Source: Flaviramulus multivorans
Lineage (GTDB): Bacteria; Bacteroidota; Bacteroidia; Flavobacteriales; Flavobacteriaceae
NCBI RefSeq assembly: GCF_021728415.1
Contig: NZ_JAKKDV010000005.1
Coordinates: 1 to 64,000, forward strand
Reading direction: 5' to 3'
Length of the DNA: 64,000 nt
The notes under the pieces are model-generated. The model was not told where the DNA came from. It did not search any database and was given only the letters and a program-made list of their open reading frames with translations. Position 1 is the first letter of the stretch. Each line of letters begins with the position of its first letter. A program made the position numbers and the translations under genes. Positions 8,261 to 45,871 of this stretch are shown piece by piece.

Positions 8261-8989
8261 TTATTGTTGTCTTACACTACCTGACGAGCTATCACTCTTA
8301 TTAACCTTTTCAGGGTTTCCGTAATATCTAACATCGCCGCCACTTGTAGCTTTGGCAGTTAACTCTTTTGAGGTATTTACCGTAATATCAGCACCACTCG
8401 TAGCTGTAACTTCACTCGATTCTGCAATTAAATCAGCTGCTTTAATATCACTACCACTAGTAGCTGAAGCTATTAATTTAGTGGTTTTGCCCGATAATCG
8501 CATATCGCTTCCGCTAGTTGACTTGCAATTTAAAACAGATGTGTTTACATCTAATTTCATATCGCTACCGCTTGTAGAAGTTAATTGTAAATTTTCTACA
8601 CTTATAGTATTTGTAGAATAAACGTCGCTTCCACTGGTTGAAATGATACTTGAAATATCTTTAAAGCTTACCTTAACTTTTTTAGAAGAAGCTTTACCGA
8701 TGTTTTTTTTGGTGTGAATTTTTAAAACACCATTTTCTATTTCAGTAAGAATCAAATCATGTAGGTTTTCATCAGCTTCAACAGTTAAACTCTCACTATC
8801 ACTTTGCGTTAAGTAAACATCTAAACCTTCAGAAGCAGATATGGTACTAAAAGGCTCATTTAAGGTTCTGTTTTCTGTTATTACATCGCCGTTTCCTGTA
8901 ACTCCCGAGTTAAGGTTAATATCAAAATTGCATGAAAAAAGCGTTAAGCTTAATACTGCGGCTACAATGAATTTAATTAGTGTTGTCAT
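8261..8989 (-). CDS. Head GIN domain (DUF2807) lipoprotein with TSGSD repeats
   Basis: This 242-residue protein has a lipoprotein signal (LTLFSCN) and then a DUF2807 head GIN domain, a right-handed beta-helix fold. From about residue 115 the repeat T(S/A)TSGSD(M/I/V) recurs roughly every 20-24 residues, six or seven times, as expected for stacked coils. The likely place is the cell envelope. Such proteins often sit beside PspC genes, as here; their molecular role is unknown. Transcription appears separate from the upstream PspC gene, because a LytTR-like operator and -7-like box lie in the 104-bp gap. Confidence 0.85.
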   Translation of the reverse strand: MTTLIKFIVAAVLSLTLFSCNFDINLNSGVTGNGDVITENRTLNEPFSTISASEGLDVYLTQSDSESLTVEADENLHDLILTEIENGVLKIHTKKNIGKASSKKVKVSFKDISSIISTSGSDVYSTNTISVENLQLTSTSGSDMKLDVNTSVLNCKSTSGSDMRLSGKTTKLIASATSGSDIKAADLIAESSEVTATSGADITVNTSKELTAKATSGGDVRYYGNPEKVNKSDSSSGSVRQQ

Positions 8990-9023: not shown

Positions 9024-9095
9024 CAAATATCTTATAAATTGCGTTTGATGAATAACTTAAATATCTGAATTGTTGTTTTTTAATGATGAACTGTT
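9024..9095 (-). promoter_or_regulatory. LytTR-type operator and promoter of the GIN lipoprotein gene (site d)
   Basis: On the plus strand GAATTGT (9067-9073), 11 nt and GATGAACTGTT (9085-9095) form the bipartite operator; CAAATATC (9024-9031) is the reverse of a GATATTTG -7-like box. The gap from operator to box is exactly 35 nt (9032-9066), as in three other promoters in this window. The box is 34 nt from the start codon at 8989. The distal half-site touches the stop codon of the PspC gene. Confidence 0.6.
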
Positions 9096-10893
9096 AATTA
9101 TCTGATTTTATTTCAATGCCGTTAGAATCGATATTCACTTTTACATCTTCGGATTTTGCTTTTAGGCCTTTTCCGTCAATTTTTAAGCTACCATCTTCTG
9201 ACTTAACTTCAACACCTTCTTTATTGATTTTTAATCCAGGTGTATCAACGTTTACATTAAAGTCATCTTCAGGACAATCTAAACATTCGGCCTCATCAAA
9301 CAGAATTTTCATGTAATGATTAGTGTTTTCTCTCGAAATAATATTGCCTTCATAATTTCTGTAATAAAGAAATGGTTTTGTACTGCTATTAAAATAAACC
9401 ACACTGTTTTCAGGTAAATATAAAACCACGTCTACCTCTTGATCACTAAATTTATTTTCAGGGTTTGTTGTAAGATATGAATCCAATAATAACGTATTAT
9501 TCCTAAAATCGAAATTGTAATTTATATTTTTAGCACGTTCTCTAGCAATTTCATAACTCCTACCATCTGCGCTTTTTTCAATAGCGATAGTTGCGACAGA
9601 ATCTGTAGTAGATTTAACTCGGATATCTACATCTGATGAGTATATAGTTTTATTACCATCATCGTCATGCGCAAGTTTAAAACTATGATTGTTTCTGTAA
9701 AAGTTAGGGTTAAAATTGTCATTACCTACCATTCTAATGTTTAAGGTATCATTAGCCATAATAGGCAACTCTGTTTTTTCAATATAACTTTCATCAAAAG
9801 CATATTCACTAGCTTGTCTGATTCCTACTATAATTAATGATATAATTGATATTAACCATATACCTAATAAGGTAAACTTTGCAATATTGCCTATGGATTT
9901 TAGGTTGTTTATTAAAATTTTTAAGCCTAAATAGAATAGGAAAAAGAACGGAATTCCTACGACAAAAAACGCTAATAAAGATATTAACCAAATAGGTGTG
10001 TTGCCTGCATTAGCAATATCAACTAAGTCTAAACCTGGAACATGAATAATGTCCGCAACTCCTACTGAAAACAGACCAATAATCAACCCAATTAAAGCTG
10101 ATGCGCCAACGATGATAAGTATGATGCCAATAAATTTGGCAAATACTTTAAAGAAAAACATAATAATATCACCTATAGTATCAAAAAAAGTTCTTGAGGA
10201 TGATTTTATACTATTAGCTCCTTTTTTTACATCGATACTTTTAGCTGCACTTGATACTGATTCTGAAACATTTTTTGCTACATCGCTAACCGTTTCAGTA
10301 ACGTTTTCTAAGCTATCTTTTATTTTTTTTTCAATGTTACTAATGTTCACTGGCTCACCAGTCATCATTATTTTTTCGGCAGTGGTTTTGGCTTCGGGTA
10401 CTAATATCCAAAGCAAAATGTAAAGTAAAATACCTGTACCTGCTCCAAAAATTAAAAGAATCCAAGCTAAACGAATCCATATGGCGTCAATACCAAAATA
10501 ATGCGCTAAACCAGACGAAACACCACCTACATAAGAATTGTCGGTATCCCTAAAAAGTTTTCTGTTGGATGTAGATGAGGATGATTTTTTTGAATACGAT
10601 GCATTTGGCTCATCTTCAAATATTTCGTCATCAACTAAGTAGTCTTCGGGTTGTCCCATAATAGAGATAACTTCATCTACTTCCTTTATACGTATAACTT
10701 GTTTGTCGTTTTCTACACGCTCGCTAAAAAGTTCTGCAATACGAGCTTCTATATCTGCTATAATTTCAGATCGACCTTGAGAGTCAGTGAATGAACGTTT
10801 TATAGCCTCAAGATAGCGCTGCAATTTTAAGTATGCATCTTCATCTATATGAAAAAATATACCTGCTAAATTTATGTTGACTGTTTTATTCAT
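9094..10893 (-). CDS. PspC-domain membrane protein
   Basis: This 599-residue protein begins with a soluble region that contains IDEDAYLKLQRYLEAI and a MGQPEDY motif. A PspC domain follows at about residues 110-175 (GGVSSGLAHYFGIDAIWIRL, then a hydrophobic helix ending ILVPEAK). Three further membrane helices lie between about 240 and 360. The C-terminal half is a probable beta-rich extracytoplasmic region and ends in repeats such as EGVEVKSEDG and NGIEIKSDN. PspC proteins respond to envelope stress. The gene overlaps the upstream PadR gene by 4 bp (ATGA), so the two are translationally coupled. Confidence 0.88.
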   Translation of the reverse strand: MNKTVNINLAGIFFHIDEDAYLKLQRYLEAIKRSFTDSQGRSEIIADIEARIAELFSERVENDKQVIRIKEVDEVISIMGQPEDYLVDDEIFEDEPNASYSKKSSSSTSNRKLFRDTDNSYVGGVSSGLAHYFGIDAIWIRLAWILLIFGAGTGILLYILLWILVPEAKTTAEKIMMTGEPVNISNIEKKIKDSLENVTETVSDVAKNVSESVSSAAKSIDVKKGANSIKSSSRTFFDTIGDIIMFFFKVFAKFIGIILIIVGASALIGLIIGLFSVGVADIIHVPGLDLVDIANAGNTPIWLISLLAFFVVGIPFFFLFYLGLKILINNLKSIGNIAKFTLLGIWLISIISLIIVGIRQASEYAFDESYIEKTELPIMANDTLNIRMVGNDNFNPNFYRNNHSFKLAHDDDGNKTIYSSDVDIRVKSTTDSVATIAIEKSADGRSYEIARERAKNINYNFDFRNNTLLLDSYLTTNPENKFSDQEVDVVLYLPENSVVYFNSSTKPFLYYRNYEGNIISRENTNHYMKILFDEAECLDCPEDDFNVNVDTPGLKINKEGVEVKSEDGSLKIDGKGLKAKSEDVKVNIDSNGIEIKSDN

Positions 10894-11231
10894 TTTTTTG
10901 TTGTTTTTTGGCTTGTTACTATTGTTACTGCATTGTGTAATTCACTCCAAGTTGTATTCAATTCTTTTAAAAACAGCTTACCTGTTTCTGTTAAACCATA
11001 ATATTTTCTTGGAGGTCCCGAGGTCGATTCTTCCCATCGGTAATTTAAAAGACCTGCATTTTTAAGTCGTGTAAGTAGCGGATAAATGGTTCCTTCTACT
11101 ACTAGCAACTTAGCGTCTTTAAGTGTGTCTAAAATTTCTGCTACATACGCATCTTCATCTTTTAAGACCGAGAGTATGCAGAATTCTAAAACGCCTTTAC
11201 GCATTTGTGCTTTTGTGTTTTCTATCTTCAT
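10890..11231 (-). CDS. PadR-family transcriptional regulator
   Basis: This 113-residue protein is a short PadR protein: a winged helix with MRKGVLEFCILSVL, VVEGTIYPLLTRLKNAGL (recognition and wing) and the conserved GPPRKYYGLTETG, then a dimerisation helix. It is the first gene of a two-gene unit with the PspC protein, a pairing common in Bacteroidota. It probably autorepresses the pair and is released by an unknown signal. Regulators of this length lack a separate ligand domain. No operator stands out in the upstream 130 bp. Confidence 0.88.
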   Translation of the reverse strand: MKIENTKAQMRKGVLEFCILSVLKDEDAYVAEILDTLKDAKLLVVEGTIYPLLTRLKNAGLLNYRWEESTSGPPRKYYGLTETGKLFLKELNTTWSELHNAVTIVTSQKTTKK

Positions 11232-14882: not shown

Positions 14883-15305
14883 TTAGAAAACAATTTTCAT
14901 TTCCAAATCTTCATTTTTTAAATCAAATTTCGCTTGAGCATATTGCGGTGGACCATAGCTTATTGGATTGTTCGACATGCCATATGACTCTTTAGGCATA
15001 CCGTTTTCTTCAAAATCCATACGTCTATTTTCATTAACGTCATGTAATGCCATAATCGCATAAGTTCTAGGTTCTACATTATCAAAAGTGATAGAAATTT
15101 TGCCATCAACAATTTTGCTTTCTAAGTTTTGAATTCCCGGACCTTTCATAAAGGTTTCTTCAGTGTGTAACGATAGCAATACGTTGCCATTGTTGTTAGT
15201 AATGTTTTCGATAGTGACAGTGATGGATTGTCCCGTTTTTTCTTCTTGCGAAAAACTAAAAGTTACTGATAATAATAGTGTGATGATTAATGATAGTGCT
15301 TTCAT
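14883..15305 (-). CDS. DUF2141 secreted protein
   Basis: This 140-residue protein has a signal peptide (MKALSLIITLLLSVTFSFSQ) and then a DUF2141 domain with TVTIENITNNNGNVLLSL, YAIMALHDVNENRRMDF and the family motif GMPKESYGMSNNP. It is periplasmic or on the cell surface and probably beta-sandwich shaped. The function is unknown. It is monocistronic: a terminator follows it and the promoter region carries LytTR-like site b. Confidence 0.87.
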   Translation of the reverse strand: MKALSLIITLLLSVTFSFSQEEKTGQSITVTIENITNNNGNVLLSLHTEETFMKGPGIQNLESKIVDGKISITFDNVEPRTYAIMALHDVNENRRMDFEENGMPKESYGMSNNPISYGPPQYAQAKFDLKNEDLEMKIVF

Positions 15306-15333: not shown

Positions 15334-15405
15334 CAAATATCTAACACTAAACTTAAGTTCAATAATTGTTATTACTGAACTGTAGATTTAGTATGATGAA
15401 ATGTT
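15334..15405 (-). promoter_or_regulatory. LytTR-type operator and promoter of the DUF2141 gene (site b)
   Basis: Plus-strand GAACTGT (15377-15383), 11 nt and GATGAAATGTT (15395-15405) form the bipartite operator. CAAATATC (15334-15341) is the reverse of a GATATTTG box. The gap between them is exactly 35 nt. The box lies 28 nt from the start codon at 15305. Confidence 0.6.
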
Positions 15406-34419: not shown

Positions 34420-35052
34420 ATGAAAGTAAAAATTGAAGTATTGGGGCTAATCATGGGTTGGTTTGCCATTATCACTCAATTTATTTTAATGATTGAAAAT
34501 AGGCAGACAGATATTTTAGAAACAGTTTTTCGTTTTTTTAGCTTTTTTACCATTCTCACCAATATTTTAGTAGTATTATTTTTTACTGCGACTGCATTAA
34601 AGTTATCAGGGTCTATTTTTAAAATATTTTCTGCAAAAGGAACCATTACAGCTATTACGGCTTTCATTCTAATTGTAGGATTAGTTTATCAATTTGTACT
34701 AAGAAAGATATGGACGCCAACTGGTTTACAATTTGTTGCCGATGAACTTTTACATTCTGTTATTCCATTATTTATGCTTGGGTATTGGTTCTTTTATTTT
34801 AAGGCCAACGACCTATTGATAAAGCCATTGATTGCTTGGTTAATTTATCCATTTACATATGTTACATTAATAATTATTAGGGGTTATTTTTCTGGATATT
34901 ACCCCTATCCGTTTTTAAATATTGAAGACTTAGGATTTACTAAAGTTTTGTTTAACGTAATAGTTATTTTCGCTCTTATAATTGCTATATTAAGTTTGCT
35001 AACTATTTTTGGAAAATATTTTATTAAAACAGCATCTGCTAATCGTAATTAG
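34420..35052 (+). CDS. Pr6Pr-family six-helix membrane protein
   Basis: This 210-residue protein has six predicted membrane helices. The Pr6Pr features are GLIMGWFAIITQFILMI, VFRFFSFFTILTNILVVLF, the loop LRKIWTPTGLQFVADELLHS and a final long helix. FAR-17a/AIG1-like proteins are distant relatives. The function in bacteria is unknown. It has its own transcription unit and converges on the LytTR gene. Confidence 0.82.
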   Translation: MKVKIEVLGLIMGWFAIITQFILMIENRQTDILETVFRFFSFFTILTNILVVLFFTATALKLSGSIFKIFSAKGTITAITAFILIVGLVYQFVLRKIWTPTGLQFVADELLHSVIPLFMLGYWFFYFKANDLLIKPLIAWLIYPFTYVTLIIIRGYFSGYYPYPFLNIEDLGFTKVLFNVIVIFALIIAILSLLTIFGKYFIKTASANRN

Positions 35053-35110: not shown

Positions 35111-35866
35111 CTACTCCAACCAAGCTTTAAAATCTTTTACACGCTCTCGGGCTACAATAACCTCGTCGTCATTATAGGTTTTTAGTTTTATTTGTAAACG
35201 CGAGTTGGTATAGCTTACCATATCTTTTATGGCATTAATATTGACAAAAAATTTGCGGTTTATGCGGAAAAAGGTGTGAGGTTCTAGCTCATCTTCAAGT
35301 TGCTCTAAAGTCGTGTCTAGTAAATAGTTTCTGCCTTCGTTAGTGTATAAATAGGTGCCCTTGTTTTCGCTGTAAAAACATTCAATGTCGTCAATATTTA
35401 TAAGTTTTAAATGTTGTCCTACTTTTACCGAAAAGCGTTTTTTGTACTCACGATCGATAGGATTTACTAGGAGTTTTTTAATATCATTAAAGTCTAAAGT
35501 AACAGCTTGCTTTTTTGGTGTACGCTCTTGATATTTTTTTACGGCTTTGGCCAAATCGTCTTCGTCAATTGGTTTTAATAGATAGTCGATACTATTTAGC
35601 TTAAAAGCTTGTAGTGCATACTCATCAAAAGCGGTGGTAAAAATAACGGCGCTTTTAATATTTATGGTTTCAAAAATTTCGAAAGACAACCCATCACTTA
35701 GTTGAATATCTAAAAATATTAAATCGGGATGTTCATTATTTTGAAACCATTGGATGGATTCTTCAACTGAATGAAGCATAGTTTCAGTTTCAATATTTAA
35801 ATGACTTAGCATACGCTGTAAGCGGCGTGCTGATGGTTTTTCGTCTTCTATAATAATTACTTTCAT
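35111..35866 (-). CDS. LytTR-family response regulator
   Basis: This 251-residue protein has a CheY-like receiver (acidic pocket E7-D8-E9, phospho-acceptor D53 in IFLDIQ, lysine in YLLKPIDEDD) and a C-terminal LytTR DNA-binding domain (RFSVKVGQHLKLINIDDIEC, FFRINRKFFVNINAIKDM). It is the likely phosphorylation target of the 2TM-fused LytS-like kinase upstream. LytTR domains bind pairs of direct half-sites about 21 bp apart, exactly the spacing found in four promoters here, including that of its own operon. The gap of 116 bp before it contains repeat E. Confidence 0.93.
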   Translation of the reverse strand: MKVIIIEDEKPSARRLQRMLSHLNIETETMLHSVEESIQWFQNNEHPDLIFLDIQLSDGLSFEIFETINIKSAVIFTTAFDEYALQAFKLNSIDYLLKPIDEDDLAKAVKKYQERTPKKQAVTLDFNDIKKLLVNPIDREYKKRFSVKVGQHLKLINIDDIECFYSENKGTYLYTNEGRNYLLDTTLEQLEDELEPHTFFRINRKFFVNINAIKDMVSYTNSRLQIKLKTYNDDEVIVARERVKDFKAWLE

Positions 35867-35889
35867 TGTTGATTGGTTGATGTTTTTTG

Positions 35890-35973
35890 CGTTAGCGATT
35901 GGAGCTAGCTACCATGTAGCGCGTAAAGCGCGACCCGTTTATCCTGAACTTGTTTCAGGAACGAGGGTAACGC
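35890..35973 (-). repeat. Dispersed repeat copy E in the LytTR operon
   Basis: In the opposite orientation to C and D, this 84-bp copy begins GCGTTAGCGATTGGAGC and ends GTAACGC. It includes GCGC-GTAAA-GCGC and, near its end, the hairpin TCCTGAA-CTTGT-TTCAGGA (35942-35960). It sits in the gap between the 2TM gene and the LytTR gene of one operon, where folded RNA could alter expression of the regulator. Confidence 0.6.
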
Positions 35974-35982
35974 CCAAATAAT

Positions 35983-36306
35983 TTATTCCCAGCGTTTGGT
36001 GTCTTCTTTATTTATAAACTCTTTCATTTTACGTTCTTCCCATGATTTTTTGAATACAATTCTGCCTTTAAATACATGCCAACCGTGGACAAAAATAAAA
36101 ACAGACCATGCTGCAAGTATGATAATATCGAACCAAAAGAAAAACTCTTTGTGTGGACCTGCCATTATATACAAATTATATAACAATAGTGCGACTACTA
36201 TTGAATACCCGACTAAATGAATATAGAAAACCTTGATGTTATAGACCTTTTTCTTAGCTTTTAAAAATTGCTCTTGAGTGTCTTTTTCTTTACTCATCTT
36301 ACTCAA
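35983..36306 (-). CDS. 2TM-domain protein (stand-alone copy 2)
   Basis: This 107-residue protein has two membrane helices (IHLVGYSIVVALLLYNLYIM and FWFDIIILAAWSVFIFVHGW) and the C-terminal signature WEERKMKEFINKEDTKRWE. The same signature ends the 115-residue neighbour and the kinase. It overlaps the 115-residue gene by 8 bp. Homologous 2TM modules probably pair with one another in the membrane and modulate the kinase; this is inference. Confidence 0.85.
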   Translation of the reverse strand: MSKMSKEKDTQEQFLKAKKKVYNIKVFYIHLVGYSIVVALLLYNLYIMAGPHKEFFFWFDIIILAAWSVFIFVHGWHVFKGRIVFKKSWEERKMKEFINKEDTKRWE

Positions 36307-36646
36307 ATTTACGGGTGTTTTGTTCTTTATCCATATACTCTTTTATTTTACGTTGTTCCCAGTTTTTACCAAACATAAAGTCTGGACCAAAAACACCTAA
36401 AAAATGAAAGAATAAACCAATACCCCAAAATAATGCTGTGGCAAACGTGCCAAAACTGAATAACTTACCGCCATTTGAAACTATAAGAATAATTATAAAT
36501 AGGTTTACTACTACGTAACTAGCTAGATGCCAATAAAAACCTATTAATTTTTTTACTTTTTCTTTGGCTCGCAGGTACGCTTTTTCTCTGAAATAGTCTT
36601 CTTCAGGAGTGTCGTTATTATAAGGTTCAATGTTGTAATTTTCCAT
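36299..36646 (-). CDS. 2TM-domain protein (stand-alone copy 1)
   Basis: This 115-residue protein has an acidic N terminus (EPYNNDTPEEDYFREKAYLR), two membrane helices at about 35-55 and 65-85, and the shared C-terminal motif FGKNWEQRKIKEYMDKEQ. It is a paralogue of the kinase's C-terminal module, so a duplication within the operon is likely. It follows the kinase by 12 bp. Confidence 0.87.
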   Translation of the reverse strand: MENYNIEPYNNDTPEEDYFREKAYLRAKEKVKKLIGFYWHLASYVVVNLFIIILIVSNGGKLFSFGTFATALFWGIGLFFHFLGVFGPDFMFGKNWEQRKIKEYMDKEQNTRKFE

Positions 36647-36658
36647 GATACTTTAATT

Positions 36659-38005
36659 TTATCTCCAACGGTTTTTTTCCTCTTCGCGCATAAATTCCTC
36701 TATTTTACGTTTTTCCCAATTTCTACCAAAAGCTCCTTGGTTTACAAATACTCGGAAAGCTTGAATTGCCAACCCAATACCCCAACCAAACATTGGGAAC
36801 CAGAACCACTGAAAATGCCATGAGGTTTTATAGTTTATAAAGATTAGAAAAGGGATTACTAAAAAATATGATGCTAGGCTATAATAAAAGCCTTTAAGTT
36901 CTTCTACATAGTTGCGTGCGCGCACGTAACTATCGTCAAATTTTGATTTTGATTCTATCGGTTTCATAACTGATATTTGTTTTGTAAGCATTGGTATTGC
37001 GACTGCAAAACGGGTTGCTTCTTTATTTATGTTTACTTTTTTGTTGGTTAATAATTGGTAGCGCTGTTTTATATTATCTAACCCAACACCACTACTCTTT
37101 TTTACTATTTGTTTGGGTTGTAAATTGTTTTCTACCACCAAATTGTCTTGGTCTTCATAAATTTTAATATGAAGTGGATTATTTGTTGTTACCATATTAT
37201 GCTTAACAGCATTTTCCAGAAGTAACTGTAAGGATAGCGGTACCACTTTACTTTCTGGGTTTATTGCTTTTTCTGGCATGGTAAAAACAATACTATCTTC
37301 AAAGCGCATTTTTAGCAAAGACATGTAGGTTTTTGCAAACTCTAACTCTTCATCAACCGTAACCAACTCTTTATTTTTTTGTTCTAGAACATAGCGATAT
37401 ACTTTTGATAACGATGTGGTGAATTTTTGAGCGCTTTGTGGGTTTTCTTCAATTAAACTCGTTAATACATTTAAGCTATTGAATAGAAAATGGGGGTCTA
37501 ATTGGTTTTTTAAGGCATCAAATTTAGCACTTGCTGTACCAGCAATTACCTTTTGTTCTTTTACTCTGTTTTGTTGGTATTTATTATAAAAATAAATAAT
37601 ATGAAATACACTAACAATGGTTAAGGTTATCCACAACCCGAATTTGTAATATTTAAACTTTTCGTTAGCTAGAAACTCGTAAAAAGTTTTATCGGTGTAT
37701 ATAAAAGTTGTGAAAGCCCTAAGAATAAACAGACCAATTAATGTAACAATAGTGGCGCCTAAGATGCCAATAACAATGCGCTTTACGGTATCATTTTTTT
37801 TCCAATTACGACGTTCCATATAAGCGAAAAAATACATATTAGAATACCCCAAGACAAAAGAATAGAGTTGATAGAATGCAAAATCGACTAAAGCATCATT
37901 GAAATTTTCATAGGTTCCAAAACCACCAGACAGCATTGTTCCAACAACAAATACAATACAACCTATTATAAACGTGATGATGATATCTTTAACCGACTTT
38001 GTCAT
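36659..38005 (-). CDS. LytS-like sensor histidine kinase with a C-terminal 2TM domain
   Basis: This 448-residue protein has four N-terminal membrane helices (about residues 7-140). A His_kinase domain of the LytS type follows, with phospho-acceptor H172 in NQLDPHFLFNSLN, an N-box LQLLLENAVKHN and a G-box GVGLDNIKQRYQLL. The last 80 residues are a 2TM domain that ends FGRNWEKRKIEEFMREEE. No extracellular sensing domain is visible, so the signal may be membrane state or a small protein such as its 2TM neighbours. It should phosphorylate the LytTR regulator at D53. Confidence 0.92.
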   Translation of the reverse strand: MTKSVKDIIITFIIGCIVFVVGTMLSGGFGTYENFNDALVDFAFYQLYSFVLGYSNMYFFAYMERRNWKKNDTVKRIVIGILGATIVTLIGLFILRAFTTFIYTDKTFYEFLANEKFKYYKFGLWITLTIVSVFHIIYFYNKYQQNRVKEQKVIAGTASAKFDALKNQLDPHFLFNSLNVLTSLIEENPQSAQKFTTSLSKVYRYVLEQKNKELVTVDEELEFAKTYMSLLKMRFEDSIVFTMPEKAINPESKVVPLSLQLLLENAVKHNMVTTNNPLHIKIYEDQDNLVVENNLQPKQIVKKSSGVGLDNIKQRYQLLTNKKVNINKEATRFAVAIPMLTKQISVMKPIESKSKFDDSYVRARNYVEELKGFYYSLASYFLVIPFLIFINYKTSWHFQWFWFPMFGWGIGLAIQAFRVFVNQGAFGRNWEKRKIEEFMREEEKNRWR

Positions 38006-38019
38006 AATTATTACTTAAT

Positions 38020-38643
38020 TTATTTGCCACAAGTTTCTAAAACCTGTACTACACGATCTTTACCCCAATTTGGATGAAATGGTGTTTCAGGTTTAAAGTT
38101 AGCAAAAAGTTCTAATGCCCTTTCTAAATCTTTACAAAATGGTGCGGTATCTTGTCCAAAATACTTTGCACCACCTATATTCCATTCTGCTTTGCAGTAA
38201 ACAACTCTTGGGTTTTCAGGTGCTATCTGTTCTGCTTTAGTGTATAATTCTACCACTTTTCCCGATAAAGTCATGCCGTATGTTGCTCCATCAAAAGCTA
38301 CCCAAGCAGTATGTAATAAGGCTTGAAGGACTAAAATTTCTGGATTGTTTTTGGAAATTGCAGTAGCATCATTAATTAAATCTTGTGCCTTTTTAAGTTT
38401 GGCACTCAATTTTTCTTCGTCTTTCTCACCAAAACTGTGCATAATATTTACTTGTGCAGCATAATAGGGTGGAAGCCAATTGTCTGGTTCTGCCGTGGCA
38501 ATACGTTCAAACAAGTTGGAAGCTTCAGTAGGATTGTTTTGTCCCCAAAGTTCAAAGGCTTTTTGCATACCTTTTTCATAGTTAGTTTGTGCATTTGTTA
38601 ATGCCGAAACTAATAGTGTTGCGATGATGATTAAATGTTTCAT
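38020..38643 (-). CDS. Secreted TPR-like protein, first gene of the LytTR operon
   Basis: This 207-residue protein has a signal peptide (HLIIIATLLVSALTNAQ) and then TPR-like helices: EKGMQKAFELWGQNNPTEA, EPDNWLPPYYAAQVNIM, NPEILVLQALLHTAWVAFDG. It is periplasmic. It may be the signal or output protein of the system, since its gene starts the operon that also encodes the kinase (14 bp downstream) and regulator. Its own promoter carries LytTR-like site a, an arrangement that allows autoregulation. I do not recognise a named family. Confidence 0.78.
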   Translation of the reverse strand: MKHLIIIATLLVSALTNAQTNYEKGMQKAFELWGQNNPTEASNLFERIATAEPDNWLPPYYAAQVNIMHSFGEKDEEKLSAKLKKAQDLINDATAISKNNPEILVLQALLHTAWVAFDGATYGMTLSGKVVELYTKAEQIAPENPRVVYCKAEWNIGGAKYFGQDTAPFCKDLERALELFANFKPETPFHPNWGKDRVVQVLETCGK

Positions 38644-38667
38644 AAGTGTTCGTTTTTAATTACATAG

Positions 38668-38739
38668 CAAATATCAATAGGAATATTAAGGTTTTAAAAA
38701 GAGGATTACCGAACTGTTATTTTTTGTAGATGAAATGTT
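38668..38739 (-). promoter_or_regulatory. LytTR-type operator and promoter of the LytTR operon (site a)
   Basis: Plus-strand GAACTGT (38711-38717), 11 nt and GATGAAATGTT (38729-38739) form the operator. CAAATATC (38668-38675) is the reverse of a GATATTTG box. The gap is exactly 35 nt (38676-38710). The box lies 24 nt from the start codon at 38643. Confidence 0.65.
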
Positions 38740-39270: not shown

Positions 39271-40005
39271 CTATGATCCTCCTTCAAACTTGAAAAAAAT
39301 AGGTACAGCATAAGAAACCTTAACGGGTTTACCACGTTGTTTACCAGGTTCCATTTTTGGTAATAAACTAATAATACGTTCTGCTTCTTTTTCTAAAATT
39401 TTATCTGGACCTCGAGATCGAATACTTGTGGTGTTTCCTTTAGAATCTATAACGAAAATTACAGATACACGACCTTGGAGGCCTAGTTCTAAAGCGGTTT
39501 GAGGATAATTAAAGTTTTTTAATATATGCTCTTGTATTTTTTGTTGAAAACACGCTTTAGACTTAGCTTTATTTAACCCTTCGCAACCGGGAAACACAGG
39601 AACATTTTCAATAATTGCAAAAGCAACTTCTACTTCTTCTTCAACCTCCTCAACAGTAACTTCGCTCACTTCAACAACGCGTTCTTCAATAGCATCATCT
39701 TGACCAGTTTCGGTACTTTCAATAATGGTTTCTTGAATTTCTTCAACATCTTCTACTATTTGAATCGTTTCTTGAATTGCGACAGGAGGTGGTGGTGGCG
39801 GTGGCGTGTTTGTATTTATTATAGGTATTTCTTCTTCTATGTTTTGTTCTACGTCAACAATCTCCATAACAAAATCACTTTTTTCATAAGTCTTAAATTC
39901 TAAGGCACGCCATGATAAAAATAACATCAAGTTTAAACCAATAGCAAAATAAATACTGCTATTACGGCCTACTTCAACTTTTGGGTTTTTTTTAGCTTTC
40001 ATCAC
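39271..40005 (-). CDS. tonB: TonB-type energy transducer
   Basis: This 244-residue protein has an N-terminal membrane anchor (about residues 17-33), a proline stretch NTPPPPPPPVAIQET, and a long acidic region rich in E and V. The C-terminal TonB domain contains NVPVFPGCEGL, FNYPQTALELGLQGRVSVIF and PKMEPGKQRGKPVKVSYAVP. It couples the proton-motive force to outer-membrane receptors such as those at 27080 and 42750. The highly acidic central part is usual for Bacteroidota TonB. No exbB or exbD is adjacent. A palindrome sits in its promoter region. Confidence 0.92.
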   Translation of the reverse strand: MMKAKKNPKVEVGRNSSIYFAIGLNLMLFLSWRALEFKTYEKSDFVMEIVDVEQNIEEEIPIINTNTPPPPPPPVAIQETIQIVEDVEEIQETIIESTETGQDDAIEERVVEVSEVTVEEVEEEVEVAFAIIENVPVFPGCEGLNKAKSKACFQQKIQEHILKNFNYPQTALELGLQGRVSVIFVIDSKGNTTSIRSRGPDKILEKEAERIISLLPKMEPGKQRGKPVKVSYAVPIFFKFEGGS

Positions 40006-42749: not shown

Positions 42750-44903
42750 TTATAAATTATCCAACTGATTGCTGGTTTTGTCTTCGCTAATTGTCCAAAA
42801 GAAACCTATAAAAAAGAATTGATCGGTGGCGGGTAACAAGGCTTGTCTGTTAAAACTGCCATTCATGTCTGGAGTGTTGGCGTATTGGTATCCATTAATA
42901 TTTTTAAATCCTAAAACATTATTAACAGATGCATAAAGTATTTTTTGTGGACTTATTAAATATGCCCAATTTATACTTAAGCTATTGTAAGCTTTTGTTT
43001 TGTCATTTAAAAAACCTGTTTTATTGGGATTTGTATATGTTCTACCTGATGCGAAAGCATAACTAAAACCTACTTGACTTCTCCAATCGTCAATCCAATA
43101 TTTACCAACTAAAGATACATTATGGGTATTTGCAAAATTTGGTTGTGCTTTTGTTGGATAGTTTTTATAATCACGTTCAGCATCTAACAATGAATAGCTT
43201 ATCCAATAATCAACATTTTTAATGGTTTTGCTATCGCGCCAAAAGAAATCTATTCCTTTCGCAAAGCCTGATCCATTACTATTAAAATTACTATCAAAAC
43301 TGGCAAATTCAGTATCGTACTTTATTAAACTGTTGTATTTTTTGTAATAAGCTTCTGCTCTAAAAATTTTTCTATCAGCATTGTACTGATAATTTAAAAT
43401 ATAATGTGTTGTATTTTGTGCTTTTAAGCTTTGATTAAATTTTAAAACATCACTTGTAGGGTTTTGGTAAAAATTACCATAAGCTAACGACATTTGGCTT
43501 TTGCCTGAAGTTTTATAAGCTAAGGATAATCTTGGAGCCAACGTGAATTCACTAAACAATGCGCTATACTCACCTCGTAAACCCGTTTTGAACGCTAAGT
43601 TTTTTGAGATAAAAATATCGGCTTCGGCAAATGCTGCAGCAAGGTTATTATTAAAGCCATAATTGGCATTGGTAATAGTTTCATCATTATAAACTTCATC
43701 ATAAGCTGTAGCGAAATATTCTGCACCAAAATAAAGCTTAAAACGATTACTGATACGGTTTTTAAATTTCAACTTAGTGTGTATGGAGTTCTCAGTTCCA
43801 TTGATTGCGCTCTCCATAATATTGAATTTATTGTTGGCATGTGTATAGCTAAATCCACCTTGTATGGTCCAAGTATCGCTTAAAACACCTTGATACGACC
43901 CGTTGAAGTATAGGTTTTTGTTGTTTAGTTTAAAATAAACACCTTCGTCATAATTAATATCTTCTTGGGTAAGCTCAAAATTTGTAGCGTCAAAAGCACC
44001 ATAGAGTTTCAATAAGCCTGAATTCGTTTTTTTTCTAAAAACTGTTTCTCCTGAAATGGTTTCAAAAGGTTTAATCCAATTATTTCTGTTTTTAAATATG
44101 ACATTGTAGGGAGCTAAATTGATGTAGGACGCATTAACACTAATAGAACTTTCTTTCCATTTTTGCGTATTTCCCAAGGTAGCGCCTACACTCATAATAC
44201 CAATATCAGTTTTCTCTTGGTCAGGTTCGTCAATCGTGTTTAGTAATAGCACGCTAGATAATGCTTGTCCGAATTCAGCAGAATAACCGCCTGTTGAAAA
44301 TGTGATGCCATCAAACAAAAATGGTGAATATCGACCGCGGGTAGGGGCATTATTGGTTGTTGGCGAATACGGCGTAAATACACGTATACCGTCTATGAAA
44401 ATTTGAGTTTCTTCAGCATCACCACCTCTAACAAATAAGCGTCCATCTTCTGCAACCGTTGTGGTTCCTGGTAGGGTTTGTAAAGCACCTACAAAATCGC
44501 CTAAAGCACTTGCAGTGGTAACTACATCAAGTGGTTTTAAAACATTTACTTTGCTATTGTCACCTGCTTGAAATGTGCCAGCTGAAAGCACAACAGCATC
44601 TAAAGTGTTAACATCTTCACGCAACTTAATTGCTAAATCTGTCATATACGAAGTGTCACCCAACATGATAAATGTTTCATATGATAAATAAGAAATTATT
44701 AAAGTAACACTTCCAGATTCCGAAGTGGTGAACGAAAAATTTCCGTTATCATCTGAAGTGGTTCCATCGTAAGTGCCTTCTAAATAAATGTTGGCTCCAG
44801 CAATGGGTTCATTTCTCGTATTATAAACCTTTCCGTTAATTGTAGTTTGTGCATGAAGTTGAATATAAATAAGTGCAATTATAAAACTGATTAGTTTTTT
44901 CAT
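42750..44903 (-). CDS. TonB-dependent receptor under LytTR-like control
   Basis: This 717-residue outer-membrane receptor has a signal peptide (ISFIIALIYIQLHAQ), a CarboxypepD-like domain (TINGKVYNTRNEPIAGANIY), and a plug with GALQTLPGTTTVAEDGRLFV and RGGDAEETQIFIDGI. The beta barrel ends ATDQFFFIGFFWTISED and a short tail. It lacks a SusD partner and converges on the GH2 gene (3 bp apart). Its promoter contains LytTR-like site c with the same 35-nt spacing as three others. The ligand is unknown. Confidence 0.9.
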   Translation of the reverse strand: MKKLISFIIALIYIQLHAQTTINGKVYNTRNEPIAGANIYLEGTYDGTTSDDNGNFSFTTSESGSVTLIISYLSYETFIMLGDTSYMTDLAIKLREDVNTLDAVVLSAGTFQAGDNSKVNVLKPLDVVTTASALGDFVGALQTLPGTTTVAEDGRLFVRGGDAEETQIFIDGIRVFTPYSPTTNNAPTRGRYSPFLFDGITFSTGGYSAEFGQALSSVLLLNTIDEPDQEKTDIGIMSVGATLGNTQKWKESSISVNASYINLAPYNVIFKNRNNWIKPFETISGETVFRKKTNSGLLKLYGAFDATNFELTQEDINYDEGVYFKLNNKNLYFNGSYQGVLSDTWTIQGGFSYTHANNKFNIMESAINGTENSIHTKLKFKNRISNRFKLYFGAEYFATAYDEVYNDETITNANYGFNNNLAAAFAEADIFISKNLAFKTGLRGEYSALFSEFTLAPRLSLAYKTSGKSQMSLAYGNFYQNPTSDVLKFNQSLKAQNTTHYILNYQYNADRKIFRAEAYYKKYNSLIKYDTEFASFDSNFNSNGSGFAKGIDFFWRDSKTIKNVDYWISYSLLDAERDYKNYPTKAQPNFANTHNVSLVGKYWIDDWRSQVGFSYAFASGRTYTNPNKTGFLNDKTKAYNSLSINWAYLISPQKILYASVNNVLGFKNINGYQYANTPDMNGSFNRQALLPATDQFFFIGFFWTISEDKTSNQLDNL

Positions 44904-45376
44904 GGTTAGTATTTTTTACTGTTCGTTTTTTTTGATAAAGCAAATTTGCGATAGAGAAAAGGAAGATTAAATTTTAAATAACCGAACTGTAAAATTTATA
45001 TGATGAATTGAAAATTAACACTAGAACGAAAAAAATAAAGGCTAAGTTTTTTCAATAAAATAGTGTTGGAGCTAAAAATTTTAAGGCTAAATTTTAATTA
45101 ATAATTTTTTATATCTTCGCTAAAACATTGGTTAAAAACACTAGAGTTTTAACTCAAAAACACCTTATAGATTTTATTTATAGTGGTTATTTAATTACCT
45201 CATAATCAGGTGTAAATAGAAGTTGTTTAAACAATAAATTTAAATCTGTAATTATCCTTTTTAAACTTTTGCTTGTTATTGATTTTTTAAGCAAAAACTA
45301 TAATAATGAAATTAATTTTCAGTCTTTGTAACGTTTTCATTAATAAAGCTACTTACATGGTAACTAAACCATCAAT
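44904..45376. other. Intergenic region with a promoter and a small ORF
   Basis: This 473-bp region separates the TonB receptor gene from the sigma factor gene. It holds LytTR-like site c (44941-45012). It also has a GTTAAAA/TTTTAAC inverted repeat near 45131-45153, a weak TATCTTCG box (45112-45119), and the start of a 24-codon ORF at 45306. I see no other gene. Confidence 0.5.
44941..45012 (-). promoter_or_regulatory. LytTR-type operator and promoter of the TonB receptor gene (site c)
   Basis: Plus-strand GAACTGT (44984-44990), 11 nt and GATGAATTGAA (45002-45012) form the operator; the last bases differ from the other copies. CAAATTTG (44941-44948) takes the place of the -7-like box. The gap is exactly 35 nt. 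The box is 37 nt from the start codon at 44903. Confidence 0.55.
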
Positions 45377-45380
45377 TTGA
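45306..45380 (+). CDS. Possible 24-residue leader ORF overlapping the sigma-factor start
   Basis: An ATG at 45306 opens a 24-codon frame with a hydrophobic start (MKLIFSLCNVFI) whose TGA stop (45378-45380) overlaps the TTG start of the sigma factor gene as TTGA. This layout would allow translational coupling. No direct evidence for translation exists; a chance ORF is equally possible. Confidence 0.3.
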   Translation: MKLIFSLCNVFINKATYMVTKPSI

Positions 45381-45871
45381 AGAAAGAACTAGAACATAGT
45401 TTTATTGAATTGCTAGAAAAGCATCAAAATATAGTGCACAAAGTTTGTCGCTTGTACACCAATAATTATGATGCTCATAACGATTTATTTCAAGAAATAA
45501 CTATCCAACTTTGGAAAGCATATCCAAAATTTAGAGGCGATTCAAAGTTCAGCACTTGGATGTATCGTGTGGGATTAAATACAGCCATAACACTTTATAG
45601 AAAATCGAAGAGAAGGATTTCAACACAAGATTTTGAAGGTGTTGAATTTAAAATTAAAGCTGAAAATTATGATGATACCGAAGAGCAACAATTGAAGATA
45701 CTCTACGAAGCAGTACACCAACTAAACGATATTGAAAAGGCACTTGTTTTCTTGTATTTAGAAGATAAGGACTATAGAGAAATTAGTGAAACTTTAGGTA
45801 TAAGCGAGGTTAATGCCAGAGTGAAGATGAATAGAATAAAAACCAAACTTAAAACCATTTTAAATCCGTAA
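45377..45871 (+). CDS. ECF-type RNA polymerase sigma factor
   Basis: This 164-residue protein has a region 2 (LFQEITIQLWKAYPKFRGDS, KFSTWMYRVGLNTAITLYRK) and a region 4 helix-turn-helix (EKALVFLYLEDKDYREISET, LGISEVNARVKMNRIKTKL). The start is a TTG at 45377; an in-frame stop (45365) rules out any longer form. It precedes a four-helix membrane protein by 4 bp, which may act as a regulator. It lacks the extra C-terminal domains of larger ECF groups. Confidence 0.9.
   Translation: MKKELEHSFIELLEKHQNIVHKVCRLYTNNYDAHNDLFQEITIQLWKAYPKFRGDSKFSTWMYRVGLNTAITLYRKSKRRISTQDFEGVEFKIKAENYDDTEEQQLKILYEAVHQLNDIEKALVFLYLEDKDYREISETLGISEVNARVKMNRIKTKLKTILNP

Follow-up and report, generated by a model that had tools for sequence, protein, structure and literature searches.

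A five-gene operon predicted to encode a two-component system

The window analyzed here is a stretch of 64,000 nt from the marine flavobacterium Flaviramulus multivorans (GCF_021728415.1, contig NZ_JAKKDV010000005.1, positions 1 to 64,000). Within it, we examined one minus-strand operon, running from 38643 to 35111, that encodes a TPR protein, a LytS-type histidine kinase, two stand-alone 2TM proteins (2TMa and 2TMb), and a LytTR response regulator. An earlier reading of this DNA (the original prediction) had named these five genes in this order, with gaps of 14, 12, and 116 bp. The coordinates agree, placing 14 bp between the TPR and kinase genes, 12 bp between the kinase and 2TMa genes, and 116 bp between 2TMb and the regulator, and the domains are supported by Pfam. 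The features of the locus are as follows.

38708..38738, minus strand: operator of the operon, ACATTTCATC-N11-ACAGTTCGGT, a direct repeat of two 9-bp units with 12-bp spacing, kept in 79 of 80 loci
38668..38699, minus strand: promoter of the operon, with a TTTT -33 region (38699-38696) and a GATATTTG -7 box (38675-38668)
38020..38643, minus strand: TPR protein, secreted, HusA-family fold, 207 aa, with a match to PDB 6bqs and a fold match of its model
36659..38005, minus strand: LytS-type histidine kinase, 448 aa, with a membrane-helix N-terminus, H172, and a C-terminal 2TM domain
36299..36646, minus strand: 2TMa, stand-alone 2TM protein, 115 aa, PF13239, of a class found in nearly every related operon
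35983..36297, minus strand: 2TMb, stand-alone 2TM protein of a divergent class, PF13239, 104 aa from ATG or 107 aa from TTG at 36306
35867..35982, minus strand: interspersed repeat, 116 bp, separating 2TMb from the regulator, matched 11 times in the genome
35111..35866, minus strand: REC-LytTR response regulator, 251 aa, PF00072 and PF04397, with D53

An 8-bp overlap between 2TMa and 2TMb had also been proposed. It holds only if 2TMb starts at the TTG at 36306; the ATG at 36297 leaves a 1-bp gap and is the more likely start. The 116-bp gap is indeed filled by a repeat, as had been noted. This element is interspersed, measures about 100 bp, and has 11 matches in the genome. We rejected it as a regulatory element because it is interspersed and because the corresponding gaps in relatives are short or different.

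In the kinase, Pfam detects PF06580 (E 5e-26) followed by a C-terminal PF13239 domain, and H172 is invariant among 50 orthologs. A structural model of the kinase contains four N-terminal helices, a long helix leading into the phosphorylation domain, the catalytic part, two C-terminal helices, and another helix; upon structure comparison, the kinase domain of this model resembles the GanS kinase. Only short loops lie outside the membrane, in agreement with the original prediction that the kinase lacks an extracellular sensor domain. The regulator combines a PF00072 receiver with a PF04397 LytTR DNA-binding domain, and D53, D8/E9, and K98 are invariant in 40 orthologs. Against the equivalog models for BtsR and LytR, it scores far under the cut-off. 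Relatives of the kinase occur at 498 places in one genome collection. By every testable feature, the operon encodes a two-component system.

A direct-repeat operator at a fixed distance from the promoter

The regions upstream of orthologous operons share a direct-repeat operator, ACAnTTCATC-N11-ACARTTCRGT. In the window, it lies at 38738-38708, at the promoter of the first gene, where an operator had been proposed. Across 80 GTDB loci, an operator with two or fewer mismatches precedes the first gene in 79, and all 79 carry TTTG at +36 relative to the operator. This is the sole favored offset for TTTG, with no other offset exceeding 4. The column profile reveals an invariant TTT(T) 10 bp past the second repeat and GATATTTG at positions 63-70. 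The promoter is, as predicted from these elements, of the Bacteroidetes type, with a 19-bp spacer and a putative activator site just upstream.

The operator is found before the operon whether the first gene encodes a HusA-like protein, a DUF2141 protein, or the kinase. Since a DUF2141 gene is the first gene of the operon in many species, the genes appear to have moved while the operator stayed.

To search the F. multivorans genome, we used only sites with at most one mismatch. Five such sites were found, four in the window and one at C5:75431, compared with approximately 0.23 expected from base composition. The TTTG of the -7 box lies exactly 36 nt downstream of the operator at all five. Looser sites, with up to three mismatches, were dropped, as their counts were near those of a reversed-pattern control (53 versus 38 and 77 versus 56). 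With the operator placed 10 bp upstream of the -33 region, the regulator is more likely to activate than to repress.

The operator follows the operon across genomes

All 20 operon-bearing genomes tested have operator sites, and a reversed control pattern gives few. Among relatives without the kinase, an operator site was present in 1 of 24 (20/20 versus 1/24, Fisher exact P ~1e-11, a value that overstates independence because the genomes share ancestry). The lone exception is a decayed remnant that retains a DUF2141 gene and a truncated TPR gene; the 8.7 kb that were read there contain no recognized kinase.

We also examined a distant set of 20 loci from other families. Here, an operator with TTT at +36 was present in three of the seven loci that have the kinase and regulator and in none of the 13 that lack them. 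One locus with a kinase and regulator and no 2TM protein (L259) has, by eye, a weaker operator, ACGGTTCATC-N11-ACAATCCATC, with TTTA at +36.

Because operator presence tracks operon presence across genomes, we tie the operator to this regulator. The same relationship argues against the alternative that another LytTR protein, or several, binds the operator and that the operon's own regulator is not the main activator. Four other LytTR loci are present in the genome, which gives this alternative some footing, but we consider it very improbable. Autoregulation, as originally predicted, is therefore borne out by comparison, with the operator conserved before the operon and linked to the regulator. 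In our assessment, the LytTR regulator of the operon very probably binds this operator and controls its own operon.

A predicted regulon of five promoters

The original prediction had assigned a common operator to the operon and to three other promoters in the window. Our search recovered all three, at 45011, 15404, and 9094, and added a fourth that had been overlooked, outside the window at C5:75431, before a gene for a beta-lactamase-like hydrolase. The sites and predicted targets in the window are listed below.

44981..45011, minus strand: operator before the TonB-dependent receptor gene, TTTG +36 at 44941-44944
42750..44903, minus strand: TonB-dependent receptor, 717 aa, target; relatives lie directly upstream of HusA-like genes elsewhere
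15374..15404, minus strand: operator before the DUF2141 gene, TTTG +36 at 15334-15337
14883..15305, minus strand: DUF2141 protein, 140 aa, target; the operon's own first gene in many relatives
9064..9094, minus strand: operator before the DUF2807 gene, at the stop codon of the PspC/Toastrack gene, TTTG +36 at 9024-9027
8261..8989, minus strand: DUF2807 (head GIN domain) protein, 242 aa, target, downstream of the operator

Similar genes follow the sites in relatives: 14 encode TPR proteins, 12 receptors, 10 DUF2141 proteins, 6 the kinase as first gene, 6 DUF2807 proteins, 3 free 2TM proteins, and 2 the hydrolase.

Directly upstream of the DUF2807 gene, window positions 9094-11231 hold a PadR-like regulator gene and a PspC/Toastrack gene, a pair of the PSP-type envelope-stress set.

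A regulon of this content could also be read as mainly an envelope-stress response, with membrane disturbance as the signal to the kinase, envelope repair or protection as the task of the regulon, and uptake in second place. The PSP-type envelope-stress set counts DUF2807 as Toastrack (PMC11237479), and the DUF2807 target sits beside the PadR-PspC/Toastrack pair. Another target is a beta-lactamase-like hydrolase, and a kinase with only short loops outside the membrane would suit such a signal. However, the oldest and most constant partners of the system are the receptor and the HusA-like protein, and the operon has no PspA-type gene. We regard this explanation as possible, and as somewhat doubtful.

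Several observations concern genes at or near the operon and its relatives. In two genera, a gene that appears by eye to be amidohydrolase-like lies between the 2TM genes and the regulator (L052:1910-3067, with a counterpart in L059). Tamlana nanhaiensis carries two copies of the operon (L163 and L164) on one contig, both with the same operator. A TonB-like gene (window 39271-40005) adjoins the operon and is a neighbor in several relatives as well; it does not carry this operator. Convergent with the end of the operon is a gene for a Pr6Pr family membrane protein (NF038065, window 34420-35052). An ECF-type sigma factor gene (window 45377-45871) is located just upstream of the TonB-dependent receptor, and a similar gene flanks the remnant locus (L158).

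The TPR protein is related to the haemophore HusA

HusA of Porphyromonas gingivalis is a porphyrin-binding haemophore that passes its ligand to the receptor HusB (PMC6173696). The TPR protein of the operon matches HusA by sequence (PDB 6bqs, E 1.9e-9). Its model (mean predicted local distance difference test, pLDDT, 91.6) aligns with HusA with a Z score of 21.9 over 190 residues, compared with 16.6 for the next TPR protein. On this sequence and model evidence, the TPR protein belongs to the HusA family, an assignment that is new here. RhuH, a haemophore of the Flavobacteriales, was rejected as a counterpart because it has a different fold.

In 18 of the 20 distant loci, and also in L259, the gene directly upstream of the HusA-like one encodes a relative of the TonB-dependent receptor. 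In the window, the receptor gene is approximately 4 kb upstream of the TPR gene, and both have the same operator. Because the TPR protein is of the HusA family and the receptor stands directly upstream in distant families, we interpret the core of the system as a pair of uptake proteins to which a two-component system is dedicated.

The relationship to HusA raises the possibility that the operon governs the uptake of haem or porphyrin, in the manner of HusA and HusB in Porphyromonas, with the ligand or its lack as the signal. HusA is the best match by both sequence and fold, the pairing with a receptor mirrors that of HusA with HusB (PMC6173696), and the equivalent of HusA F80 remains aromatic, F or W, in 48 of 50 sequences. 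However, the equivalents of W130 and Y164, which contact the porphyrin in HusA, are glycine. Other aromatic residues (W114, Y122, W154, and F162) are nearly invariant. With W130 and Y164 lost and other aromatics kept, the ligand may differ from that of HusA, so haem is only a lead, and we rate haem control as rather unlikely.

2TM proteins as a probable addition to the circuit

Nearly every flavobacterial operon combines a 2TM tail on the kinase with one to four free 2TM proteins. In a tree of 2TM sequences, which is weakly supported at depth, the kinase tails form a group that includes their own recent copies. Of the free proteins, one class is found almost everywhere, and 2TMb belongs to a divergent class. 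In one clade (L056-L060, and more weakly in L062 and L063), an additional operator precedes the free 2TM genes.

Kinase and regulator systems without 2TM parts also exist (L259, L282, L291, and L293). The 2TM parts would therefore not be needed for the basic circuit and, as the distant versions of the kinase and regulator lack them, appear to be an addition to it. Plausibly, they form a module for sensing or feedback. No papers on PF13239 were found in a search for them.

One more specific proposal is that the free 2TM proteins serve to inhibit the kinase and so provide negative feedback, as membrane inhibitors do in LytTR Regulatory Systems (LRS). The free 2TM genes are in the operon in nearly all loci, and the LRS inhibitors are a precedent (PMC6193735). 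Given their place in the operon, and their own operator in one clade, the free 2TM proteins should rise with the signal. However, they could equally be activators or chaperones. We hold the inhibitor proposal to be a real possibility, falling a little short of an even chance.

In three loci from other families (L284:5860-7204, L286, and L299), the receptor/HusA-like pair is followed by genes for a 4TM protein, a 95-aa winged-helix-like protein, and a 2TM protein. The 4TM and winged-helix-like proteins were named by eye, and this set replaces the kinase and regulator. These loci would fit a general plug-in role for 2TM, as a membrane sensing or feedback module for HusA-like/receptor pairs, with one uptake core under two unrelated transcription controls. 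This generalization is speculative, and we think it unlikely to hold as stated. Separately, a 2TM domain is fused to a protein that by eye is dihydrofolate reductase-like (L008:1444-2355), elsewhere in the same genome.

A model for the circuit

The operon, its operator, the fixed spacing, the conserved regulon, the linkage of the operator to the regulator, the HusA homology, and the receptor pairing are read from sequence; to these, the model adds phosphotransfer, activation, a role for the 2TM proteins, and a ligand, all of which we infer. The LytS-type kinase would sense the state of the inner membrane, or partner proteins, via its membrane helices, and phosphate would pass from H172 of the kinase to D53 of the regulator. 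A dimer of the regulator would then bind the two 9-bp repeats 10 bp upstream of the -33 region and recruit RNA polymerase. In this way, the regulator would activate its own operon and the four promoters of the TonB-dependent receptor, DUF2141, DUF2807, and beta-lactamase-like hydrolase genes. The core would be an old outer-membrane uptake pair, a receptor and a secreted HusA-like binding protein, served by a regulator of its own. In the Flavobacteriales, the kinase would have gained its 2TM tail and one to four free 2TM proteins, which may associate with the kinase in the membrane and tune it by feedback.

Some observations weigh against this model. The kinase structure is only moderately confident (predicted template modeling score, pTM, 0.43), and the genome encodes four other LytTR proteins that could share the operator. 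The glycines at the W130 and Y164 positions of HusA and the systems without 2TM parts, both described above, count against it as well. Taken as a whole, an autoregulated two-component system with a small regulon, activation included, is in our judgment a likely description of the locus.

Comparison with known systems

The operon resembles the LytS/LytTR systems BtsSR, YpdAB, and LytSR in its PF06580 kinase, REC-LytTR regulator, and direct-repeat sites. Unlike those systems, it has a C-terminal 2TM domain on the kinase and free 2TM proteins in the operon, and its targets are receptor, HusA-like, DUF2141, and DUF2807 proteins.

The LRS class consists of a LytTR regulator and a membrane inhibitor and, lacking a partner kinase, is distinct from two-component systems (PMC6193735). 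As in the LRS HdrRM and BrsRM, the operator has 9-bp repeats 12 bp apart, approximately 10 bp upstream of its own promoter. Positive feedback on the operon, predicted here, and a small membrane protein encoded beside the regulator are further similarities (PMC6193735). In contrast to LRS, the operon encodes a regulator with a receiver domain together with its cognate kinase, and the membrane proteins are 2TM proteins (PF13239). Because of the receiver domain and the kinase, the operon is not an LRS, despite its promoter geometry. LRS-like operons of Bacteroides also have direct repeats, approximately 11 bp before a promoter of the Bacteroidetes type whose elements are a TATCTTTG box and a 19-bp spacer (PMC6193735), whereas their LytTR protein is membrane-bound, the partner is NfeD/DUF2154, no kinase is present, and the repeat sequence is another.

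The operon shares with HusA/HusB of P. gingivalis (PMC6173696) a secreted TPR-fold protein of the HusA family and a TonB-dependent receptor. It differs in key porphyrin-contact residues and in the dedicated kinase and LytTR regulator that accompany the pair.

In Flavobacterium johnsoniae, five of five lines coevolved with Burkholderia thailandensis acquired a mutation in the kinase/LytTR pair FJOH_RS09520/09515 (PMC10197871). We considered this pair as a possible counterpart; it is probably a different system, as the locus tags are adjacent and no 2TM gene lies between them. Among open-licence papers, we found none on the present system, and a search for HusA together with LytTR returned unrelated papers only.

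For the Flavobacteriaceae, in which signaling is little studied, this system adds a defined regulon whose operator can be read from sequence and whose promoter geometry is fixed. The predicted circuit joins four poorly known families, 2TM, DUF2141, DUF2807, and the environmental HusA-like proteins, and opens the function of the 2TM domain to direct tests. Should the ligand prove to be a porphyrin, free-living marine bacteria would have a two-component regulon linked to haem.

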